Assembly (NCBI RefSeq): GCF_012971745.1 | Contig: NZ_CP048834.1 | Location: forward strand, 930,001 to 994,000 | DNA from: Starkeya sp. ORNL1 | GTDB taxonomy: Bacteria; Pseudomonadota; Alphaproteobacteria; Rhizobiales; Xanthobacteraceae | DNA length: 64,000 nt | Direction of reading: 5' to 3' | In this document: in pieces, positions 13,947-15,815 of the stretch | Layout of the letters: every line of letters starts with the position of its first letter | Position numbering within the stretch: the first letter of the stretch is position 1 | Translations under genes and position numbers: made by a program | The notes under the pieces: generated by a model | The model's input: only the letters and a program-made list of their open reading frames with translations | What the model was told of the DNA's origin: nothing | The model's database searches: none

Positions 13947-13957
13947 TGTCGCCAGCG

Positions 13958-14010
13958 ATGGGGATGGGGTCCCCCGAAACCGCCGTAAAGGCTGATGACT
14001 CCTACCAGGC
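13958..14010 (+). ncRNA. Fluoride (crcB-type) riboswitch aptamer
   Basis: The segment contains the conserved fluoride aptamer blocks in order: GGGGATGG, GGTCCCCC, AAACCGCC, a short hairpin loop, GGCTGATGACTCCTACC. These match the consensus of the crcB motif, including the pseudoknot-forming CCGCC/GGC parts and the terminal GATGACTCCTA. It precedes two fluC/crcB genes, the classical targets. Fluoride binding turns on the genes in known members. Confidence 0.93.
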
Positions 14011-14040
14011 GTGTTCAGCGCGGTAGGAATCTATTATTCC
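14000..14040 (+). promoter_or_regulatory. Riboswitch expression platform (alternative hairpins)
   Basis: TCCTACC (14000-14006), the 3' strand of the aptamer, can pair perfectly with GGTAGGA (14022-14028), which would dismantle the aptamer. A second hairpin GGAAT/ATTCC (14026-14040) overlaps and competes with it. There is no clean T-tract, so the mode may not be simple termination. Confidence 0.6.
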
Positions 14041-14233: not shown

Positions 14234-14596
14234 ATGCAGATCCCGGAAAAGGCATCGCTGCTGCGGATCCTCATTGGCGAGGACGACCAGGCTGACGGCC
14301 GGCCACTTTATGAGGCGATCGTTCTCAAGGCGCGCGAGGCCCATCTTGCGGGGGCGACCGTCCTGCGCGGTCCGCTTGGCTTTGGTCGATCCAGCGTCCT
14401 GCACACGGCGAAGATGCTCCGCCTGTCGCAGGACCTGCCCATGGTGATCGAGATCATCGATACCGAGGAGAAGATCCAGGCCTTCCTGCCAGCACTGACA
14501 CGGCTCACCCAGAGCTGCCTGATCACCCTGGAGAAGGTTACCGTGCTTCGCTACGGCGCCGATGATTCCGGCATCATTCCCGATGACGGTGATTGA
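14234..14596 (+). CDS. DUF190 (PII-like) protein, first copy
   Basis: The 120-residue protein belongs to DUF190, a small ferredoxin-like/PII-like family frequently linked to crcB genes. It shows LRILIGEDDQADGRPLYEAI, then LAGATVLRGPLGFGRSSVLH and ITLEKVTVLRYG, the complete domain. GGAGG lies six bases before the ATG. A regulatory or accessory role for the FluC channels is inferred from the repeated genomic association. It is the first full-length gene behind the riboswitch and shares a nearly identical central block with the fourth gene of the operon. Confidence 0.88.
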   Translation: MQIPEKASLLRILIGEDDQADGRPLYEAIVLKAREAHLAGATVLRGPLGFGRSSVLHTAKMLRLSQDLPMVIEIIDTEEKIQAFLPALTRLTQSCLITLEKVTVLRYGADDSGIIPDDGD

Positions 14597-14648: not shown

Positions 14649-15041
14649 ATGAATCTGGAAGCCTGTGCCCTCGTATTGCTCGGCGGCTTTTTTGGCGGGA
14701 TCTCCCGCTTCTTCCTCTCGGGCGTGGTCGGTCGCCGGATCGGCGAGACATTCCCTTGGGGCACATTGGCCGTCAATGTCTCAGGCGCCCTGGCCATCGG
14801 TGCCTTCGCCGGAGCGGCGCGCTCGATCGGGGGGATCTTTGCCAGCGAAATGTTTCGCGACCTGATCGTCGTCGGCCTGTTCGGCGGCTACACGACGGTG
14901 TCTTCCTTCTGCCTGCAGACGCTGAACCTCGCCATCGACGGCGAACACCGGCGAGCCGTCTTCAATGTCGTCGCCTCGGCCGGTTTGTGCGTCCTCGCGG
15001 TCGCGATCGGCTTCTGGTCCGTCGTCCGGTTGGTCGGGTAA
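14649..15041 (+). CDS. fluC: Fluoride channel subunit FluC/CrcB, first copy
   Basis: FluC proteins form antiparallel dimers that let F- leave the cytoplasm. The start at 14649 gives 130 residues, the family size; an ATG at 14583 would overlap the DUF190 end. Four membrane helices are visible, with the TM2 Asn (N43 in LAVNVSG) and the GGYTTVSSF segment. In the Phe box the first Phe is replaced by Val (V84), while the second (F87) is kept. It overlaps nothing and is followed five bases later by a second fluC, suggesting a heterodimer. Confidence 0.9.
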
Positions 15042-15046
15042 CCGCG

Positions 15047-15463
15047 ATGCCGAGACATGAAAAGTGGACAGCCGTGTTGCGGTTCTATCTCGCAGTGGGA
15101 TGCGGGGCTGCAATCGGGTCACTGCTCCGGTACCTGTCCGCAGTGGTGATCGTGTCGATGCTGGGGCAGAGCGCCCTTCTGGCAACGGCCTTCGTCAATA
15201 TTGTCGGTTCGTTCGTGATCATGTCCTTCGCGACGCTGACCAACCCGGACGGACGCTTCCTTATCGGGCCGGTCGGCCGCCAGTTCGTGATGGGCGGTCT
15301 CTGTGGCGGCTTCACCACCTTCTCGGCAATGAGCCTCGACACATTCATTCTGCTGTTCGAAGGCGACTTAACCCTCGCGGCTACCTATCTCGTAACGGTG
15401 GTGGTCTTTTCGCTGGCGGCGGCCTGGATCGGCTACGTTCTGGCGGCCCGGCTCAACAGATAA
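15047..15463 (+). CDS. fluC: Fluoride channel subunit FluC/CrcB, second copy
   Basis: The 138-residue protein has four membrane helices, the conserved TM2 Asn (N51 in FVNIVGS) and GGFTTFSAM. Here the first Phe of the box is present (F92) but the second is Met (M95), the opposite of the upstream copy. The five-base spacing from the first fluC implies coupled translation and equal dosage. It differs widely from the first copy, as expected of dedicated heterodimer partners rather than a recent duplication. Confidence 0.9.
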
Positions 15464-15476
15464 TCCGGAGGCGCAG

Positions 15477-15815
15477 ATGAGCCTTCCCAGGGAATCCGTC
15501 CTCCTGCGGATATTCTTCGGCGAGGAGGACAGGGCACCGAATGGCAAGCCGCTCTACGAGGCCATCGTCACGAAGGCGCGCGAAATGAGCATGGCCGGCG
15601 CGACGGTCCTGCGAGGGCCGCTCGGCTTCGGACGATCGAGCGTCCTTCACACGGCGAAGATCCTGCGGCTGTCGCAAGACCTGCCCATCGTCGTCGAGAT
15701 CGTCGACGCGCCTGAGAAAATCGATGCGTTCGTCCCGGCGATCATGGAATTGACGAAGAGCTGCCTAATCACCACGGAAAAGATTCAGGTCATTCGCTAC
15801 GGCGCCGGTGACTAG
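15477..15815 (+). CDS. DUF190 (PII-like) protein, second copy
   Basis: The 112-residue paralogue of the first gene in the operon starts at ATG 15477 behind GGAGG. It keeps the block ATVLRGPLGFGRSSVLHTAK and LRLSQDLPIVVEIVD almost unchanged but differs at both ends. The two DUF190 genes bracket the two fluC genes. As for the first copy, the function is not established; a regulatory or scaffolding role with FluC is an inference from context. Confidence 0.88.
   Translation: MSLPRESVLLRIFFGEEDRAPNGKPLYEAIVTKAREMSMAGATVLRGPLGFGRSSVLHTAKILRLSQDLPIVVEIVDAPEKIDAFVPAIMELTKSCLITTEKIQVIRYGAGD

Follow-up and report, generated by a model that had tools for sequence, protein, structure and literature searches.

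Homodimeric Fluc channels such as Bpe and Ec2 have two identical pores, and in Ec2 each pore takes F80 from one subunit and F83 from the other (PMC4969038), a geometry of one Phe from each subunit that is stated in PMC5417652 as well. Fused 'cis' double mutants of Ec2, in which both Phe are lost from one pore, still conduct, and the 'trans' combinations F80I/F80I and F83I/F83I, with one Phe lost per pore, show no conduction (PMC4969038). Replacement of F80 or F83 by Ile makes Ser84 and Ser110 of Ec2, the latter equivalent to Bpe S112, switch rotamers (PMC4969038). Furthermore, F80A, F80L, F80I, F83M and T114A are inactive and T114V is active, and every listed substitution of F80 other than Met is inactive, Val not being in the list (PMC5636608).

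In the tandem heterodimeric Flucs La1/La2 of Lactobacillus acidophilus, Sa1/2 and Mt1/2, the fluC genes are adjacent and divergent (about 25% identity), the subunits have unlike loop-charge bias, and the Phe-box is partly lost (PMC3755343, PMC5636608). La and Sa each retain three of the Phe, and in Mt both subunits lack the same one; a degraded or inactivated pore has already been proposed for such channels, and their non-canonical Phe-box residues have been read either as a disrupted pore or as novel coordination chemistry (PMC5636608). In FEX, one half carries F..M and the other I..F, which leaves one pore with both Phe; the N domain supplies Phe-1 of the live pore and the C domain its Phe-2, its TM2-like Thr and its TM9 (TM4-like) residues, while the dead pore lacks, in addition, the TM4 track and the Thr of the TM2 motif PxGTxxxN (PMC5417652). 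The one-pore principle is therefore already known, published for heterodimers and shown for FEX. Our literature search found no paper on the Candida FEX structure, and in the open-licence literature we came across no bacterial pair described as lacking both Phe in one pore, nor any account of the apparent single origin of such a pattern, its exceptions or selection on the changed pore.

Pore residues of the fluC pair

The window, that is, the whole stretch of 64,000 nucleotides that was analysed, contains an operon in the order fluoride riboswitch, DUF190, fluC-A, fluC-B, DUF190, with the following features:

13951..14011, + strand, fluoride riboswitch aptamer (RF01734) upstream of the operon, 57.9 bits (gathering threshold 34), E 1.9e-13
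14234..14596, + strand, DUF190 gene 1, 120 aa, the operon's first gene, PF02641 at 129.4 bits (cut-off 23.4)
14649..15041, + strand, fluC-A, 130 aa, Phe-box TTVSSF, pore string TNVFQNSCV
14892..14909, + strand, Phe-box of fluC-A by alignment, T82 T83 V84 S85 S86 F87
14898-14900, + strand, V84 codon of fluC-A, the first Phe replaced
14907-14909, + strand, F87 codon of fluC-A, the second Phe
15047..15463, + strand, fluC-B, 138 aa, Phe-box TTFSAM, pore string TNFMDYVSA
15314..15331, + strand, Phe-box of fluC-B by alignment, T90 T91 F92 S93 A94 M95
15320-15322, + strand, F92 codon of fluC-B, the first Phe
15329-15331, + strand, M95 codon of fluC-B, the second Phe replaced
15477..15815, + strand, DUF190 gene 2, 112 aa, the operon's last gene, PF02641 at 123.5 bits

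The flanking genes, which we take to be RluC-like and RarA-like, lie on the strand opposite to the operon, and a consensus scan returned 0 promoters and 0 terminators. fluC-A and fluC-B are two separate open reading frames (stop 15039-15041, start 15047, a 5-base gap) and the sole fluC genes found in the single-contig genome. A misread start or a frameshift was ruled out, as both frames are open and dN/dS is low (median 0.19 for fluC-A and 0.25 for fluC-B). There is an alternative upstream ATG for fluC-A at 14562, yet 130 aa is the commonest length, shared by 64 of its 120 best homologues.

Both proteins matched the Fluc/CrcB family PF02537 (79.2 bits for fluC-A and 70.8 for fluC-B, cut-off 32.9) and NCBIfam equivalogs above cut-off, and both have the four-helix fold with TM3 broken at a Ser/Thr pair. 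In this fold, in the broken TM3 and in Thr39 and Asn43 of TM2, retained in both subunits, they resemble homodimeric Flucs (Bpe, Ec2 and the QN-type singletons). The alignment, given here as a string of the Bpe positions T39 N43 F82 F85 E88 Y104 S108 S112 T116, places V84 of fluC-A at F82, the first Phe-box position (Phe-1), and M95 of fluC-B at F85, the second (Phe-2). The preliminary description had read TTVSSF as lacking the first Phe and TTFSAM as lacking the second, and this is confirmed, both replaced residues falling inside the Phe-box. Each subunit's Phe-box is thus incomplete (V/F in fluC-A, F/M in fluC-B), and both Phe are present only across the pair, a per-subunit shortfall that known heterodimers and FEX have as well. 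Among the 120 best homologues, Phe-1 of fluC-A is Val in all 120, and Phe-2 of fluC-B is Met in 116 and Leu in 4; Phe-2 of fluC-A is replaced by Leu in 2 and by Tyr in 2, one of the Leu proteins, P0084, matching locus L179 at 100%. Apart from Phe-1, fluC-A does not differ from the common singleton string TNFFQNSCV, and it keeps the QNSCV, including the TM4 string N-S-C-V, of most QN-type homodimers. The TM4 string of fluC-B is Y-V-S-A, a partly lost track that still has Y at Bpe 104 and S at Bpe 112, with V and A at the S108 and T116 positions; the Ec2 T114 position is accordingly Val in fluC-A and Ala in fluC-B, and the H106/S108 position is Val in fluC-B.

The statement in the preliminary description that a Fluc pore is lined by the first Phe of one subunit and the second of the other agrees with the published accounts (PMC4969038, PMC5417652). 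Given this geometry, an A:B heterodimer would have one complete pore, F92 of B with F87 of A, and one with neither Phe, V84 of A with M95 of B, as had been claimed; hereafter we call the two-Phe pore alpha and the V84/M95-type pore beta. Its two pores would be unlike each other, in contrast to those of a homodimer. The two genes, 27% identical, share with the La, Sa and Mt heterodimers their adjacency, divergence and partial Phe-box loss, and probably an unlike loop-charge bias. Unlike La and Sa, however, they leave one pore with no Phe and the other with its full two, and, unlike Mt, they have lost different positions in the two subunits. Their host is Gram-negative, a group in which heterodimers are described as considerably rarer (PMC11139923). 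The pattern is that of FEX, with Val here for its Ile, and the A-family profile found its best stretch in the FEX chain of PDB 11wr/9op1 at residues 210-322, in the second half. In FEX a linker helix joins both halves into a single chain and the dead pore has lost the TM2 Thr, whereas A and B are two genes and fluC-B keeps the TM2 T and N. The pair appears to be the bacterial equivalent, split over two genes, of the one-pore arrangement of FEX.

Survey and descent of adjacent fluC pairs

We surveyed adjacent fluC pairs at 71 named loci and in further genomes, Gram-positive pairs lying outside the survey, and obtained 145 distinct pairs among the matches listed. Pairs are written as Phe-1/Phe-2 of the first gene plus Phe-1/Phe-2 of the second; class 2 is defined by Trp112 in B and class 3 by Met85 in B, each with Val in A. 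As V-type profiles or proteins were used in part to find the pairs, the class counts are not frequencies: 70 pairs were VF+FF with Trp112 in B, 43 VF+FM, 11 YF+FF, 7 FF+FF, 4 FM+FF, 2 VL+FF and 2 FL+FF, with one each of VF+FA, FF+YF, FF+MF, VL+FM, VF+FF without Trp, and VV+FF. A Phe was lost in 138 of the 145 pairs compared with 1 of 100 singletons, 99 of which kept both. One two-Phe pore was retained in 141 of 145 pairs; the expectation that the losses are always complementary nevertheless fails, since four pairs have no two-Phe pore at all (VL+FF twice, VV+FF once and VL+FM once, at L097, L101, L251 and L179), A having lost its Phe-2 in all four. A family-model check found no other fluC in the three genomes of L097, L101 and L179. 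Where a V-type pair keeps Phe-2 in B, Trp stands at the Bpe S112 position of B in 73 of 74 cases. The five-base spacing of the window's genes had been taken to provide equal synthesis; 43 of 44 class-3 pairs, with start codons assigned mechanically, have gaps of -4 to +9 bases, which points to ordinary operon packing instead.

With regard to distribution, 29 of 30 pair-bearing genomes checked had two fluC matches and one had three. In a Mesorhizobium-like genus an A-type match was found in 41 of 146 genomes, and the 30 loci read from it were VF+FM in 29 cases and VL+FM in one, the latter being L179, where the sole fluC pair has one Phe of four left. In a sample of 110 genomes around that of L082, which members shared with other samples suggest to be Pseudomonadota, fluC was present in 104 and a tandem pair in 2. 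All YF+FF, FF+FF, FL+FF, FF+YF and FF+MF pairs came from a Halovivax genome and its phylum sample; these archaeal loci (L103, L148-L167) include 11 distinct pairs with Tyr at Phe-1 of the first gene. The FM+FF pairs (L137, L139, L141, L142), from the window's own genus, have a separate origin, with TTFSTM in the first gene and, in the second, both Phe and Gly for Glu88.

A quick tree of 163 rows, built with the pore columns masked, placed the A-type and B-type rows among the QN-type singletons, with support of 81 for the A clade and 85 for the B clade, and divided the A rows and the B rows alike, VF+FM grouping with VF+FA, and VF+FF with VL+FF. The tree is weakly resolved, 77 of its 160 inner branches being open and 21 starred, and in the free search two A rows (L144, L172) fell outside the A clade. 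When all Val-type A rows were constrained to group together, however, the resulting tree scored 22.9 log units above that of the free quick search, and with an AU p of 0.70 a single origin of Val-type A is not rejected. With the V/M pattern confined to one clade of the quick tree, convergent, repeated complementary loss is not supported. Given that the Val-type rows belong together, the double loss in one pore (VF+FM, VF+FA) would amount to one or two events. On this tree A and B probably go back to a homodimeric Fluc gene that was duplicated in tandem, the change of Phe-1 to Val in A would be common to the whole clade, and the changes in the beta half of B, which differ between branches, are probably later than the Val of A. 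Locus L237, with Val in A and neither Met nor Trp in B, is a possible intermediate.

In 6 of 10 same-genus regions (L209, L210, L211, L216, L217, L218) a single two-Phe fluC of DY or EY type lies between RarA-like and RluC-like genes; the remaining four, taken around tandem pairs elsewhere, are without these neighbours. In the window the same place is occupied by the pair operon, on the strand opposite to the two genes, and the most economical explanation is that a homodimer gene with two pores was replaced here by a heterodimer operon. The nearest named relatives of the pair in the quick tree are Mesorhizobium, which makes it likely that the operon was acquired from another rhizobial line. 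Close relatives with a two-Phe homodimer gene at the same place thereby offer a natural comparison of one barrel with two.

A probable single conducting pore

We compared ten sites of each pore with the average column. In the 44 class-3 pairs, a shallow set (mean 2.96 changes per column) that limits the drift test, we counted 2 changes at alpha and 5 at beta sites against 29.6 expected, and against 23.7 for beta without the two sites fixed by definition. Ala116 of B is present in 44 of 44 with 6 codon changes, and the Bpe-108 position of B is Val in 41, Leu in 2 and Ala in 1. For comparison, 73 QN-type homodimers, a set chosen for Gln at 88, had 12 changes at the alpha sites against 123.1 expected. 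Since the beta sites are conserved in class 3 too, conservation alone cannot single out alpha; it is, however, a sign that the beta pore is not drifting and appears to be held by selection.

Membrane orientation was judged from Arg and Lys in the loops, of which fluC-B has 6 in and 0 out and fluC-A 3 in and 4 out, suggesting that fluC-B probably inserts with its termini inside. The bias of B exceeded that of A in 28 of 28 class-3 pairs, the two having opposite sign in just 10 of 28, with A's own bias near zero. In the YF+FF pairs the TM4 of the two-Phe pore belongs to the first gene, and it is this gene that shows the bias for termini inside (exceeding the second in 11 of 11), the reverse of the bacterial V-type pairs, so that the complete pore seems to be kept in opposite directions between lineages.

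Taken together, a one-pore A:B heterodimer is the best reading and one we hold with somewhat better than even confidence; the sequences and their alignment, the operon, the sole copies and the conservation are direct findings, while its assembly, orientation and conducting pore are inferred. fluC-A and fluC-B would together form a single antiparallel Fluc channel, specific for fluoride and produced in response to it through the riboswitch, with B inserted termini-inside and A the other way up. Fluoride would exit via the alpha pore, formed by F92 of B together with F87, Thr39, Asn43 and the TM4 track N106, S110, C114 and V118 of A, and the beta pore (V84 of A; M95, Y114, V118, S122 and A126 of B) would probably be non-conducting for fluoride and kept in a fixed, closed form. 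The preliminary description had gone further, to an obligate heterodimer with exactly one working pore. Adjacency, the lack of other fluC genes and a probably unlike loop-charge bias speak for the heterodimer; 'exactly one' is drawn from the Ec2 mutants, and conservation does not mark the second pore as abandoned, so that we regard one working pore as likely. Against the reading stand the conservation of the class-3 beta sites, the near-zero charge bias of A, the Leu or Tyr at Phe-2 in four of the best A homologues, and L179, which retains a single Phe yet shows no other fluC.

A tentative and considerably less probable reading is that the changed pore of V-type heterodimers is no relic and that the sister clades settled on different barrels, class 2 with a functional Val/Trp/Phe pore and class 3 having closed it off, under selection, with Met/Val/Ala. 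The class 2 Trp in TM4 of B, beside the absent Phe-1, would then be an aromatic swap between subunits. The rotamer shifts of Ec2 Ser110 in the F80I and F83I mutants would put a Trp at this position close to the missing ring, whose place it may take. In 73 class-2 pairs the alpha sites had 34 changes and the beta sites 18 against 89.0 expected, or 18 against 71.2 at the eight free beta sites, with no sign of relaxing in the beta pore; B keeps Phe-2 and Ser108 in 73 of 73, and A has lost Phe-2 in 3 of 73. If this reading held, a count of Phe would point to the wrong pore as the working one in some members of the family. That the two-Phe pore is the relaxed one in class 2 was suggested by the first 25 pairs (alpha 27, beta 8 changes; p 0.002, or 0.010 corrected for sites fixed by definition) but was not repeated in 48 new ones (alpha 11, beta 10; p 0.83), all 73 together giving p 0.036, corrected 0.165.

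We think it unlikely that both pores conduct, with the V84/M95 pore using non-Phe coordination chemistry kept by selection, although such chemistry is the alternative named in PMC5636608. In 69 pairs, a set filtered on Val, the codon for Val at Phe-1 of A (Bpe 82) has changed at least 19 times and the amino acid 0 times, while across the same pairs 3 changes were counted at Phe-2 of A, which belongs to the pore presumed live; seen from the second gene the picture agrees, the first gene having Val in 73 of 73 pairs with Trp112 and in 44 of 44 with Met85. The few changes at the class-3 beta sites fit as well. However, Ec2 F83M and T114A and the listed F80 substitutions except Met are all inactive (PMC5636608), and the T114 and H106/S108 positions of B are occupied by Ala and Val, respectively. 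The fixed Val and the sister-clade Trp bear on the printed question of a disrupted pore as against another fluoride coordination (PMC5636608).

We consider it equally doubtful that the second pore is vestigial and drifting, as proposed for the La and Sa heterodimers and shown for FEX (PMC5636608, PMC5417652). The TM4 of B does depart from the homodimer track, with slight variation at its Bpe-108 position, but the replaced residues barely drift among the best homologues, and Val and Ala116 are kept through synonymous change. Moreover, the equivalent Ile and Met of FEX are reported not to be conserved among other eukaryotes (PMC5417652), unlike the residues here. That A and B form separate homodimers, or that one is a decaying copy, is very improbable even though physical A-B assembly is our inference, as A:A or B:B would miss one Phe per pore, the 'trans' state inactive in Ec2 (PMC4969038), and dN/dS is low in both genes, the A rows and the B rows divide in the same way in the tree, and the genome has no other fluC.

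DUF190 genes and riboswitches

The operon's two DUF190 genes are 70% identical to each other and are the only DUF190 found in the genome. DUF190 lay near class-3 pairs at 28 of 31 loci, near VF+FF pairs at 22 of 25, near QN-type singletons at 40 of 64 and near other singletons at 0 of 23, all with short flanks and near-copies counted. A DUF190 match above 80 bits was present in 7 of 61 relatives, and in each of the seven such a match lies no more than about 125 bases from one to fluC. We found no published link of DUF190 to fluoride, judged by title and abstract; DUF190 looks like a partner of the channel that tracks this fluC line. Fluoride riboswitch matches were found at 10 of 20 relative loci searched (L035, L036, L037, L054, L056, L057, L059, L061, L065, L071). 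L057 has three such matches, on both strands, in one 6.4 kb locus, and its organism carries two class-3 pairs, L055 and L057.
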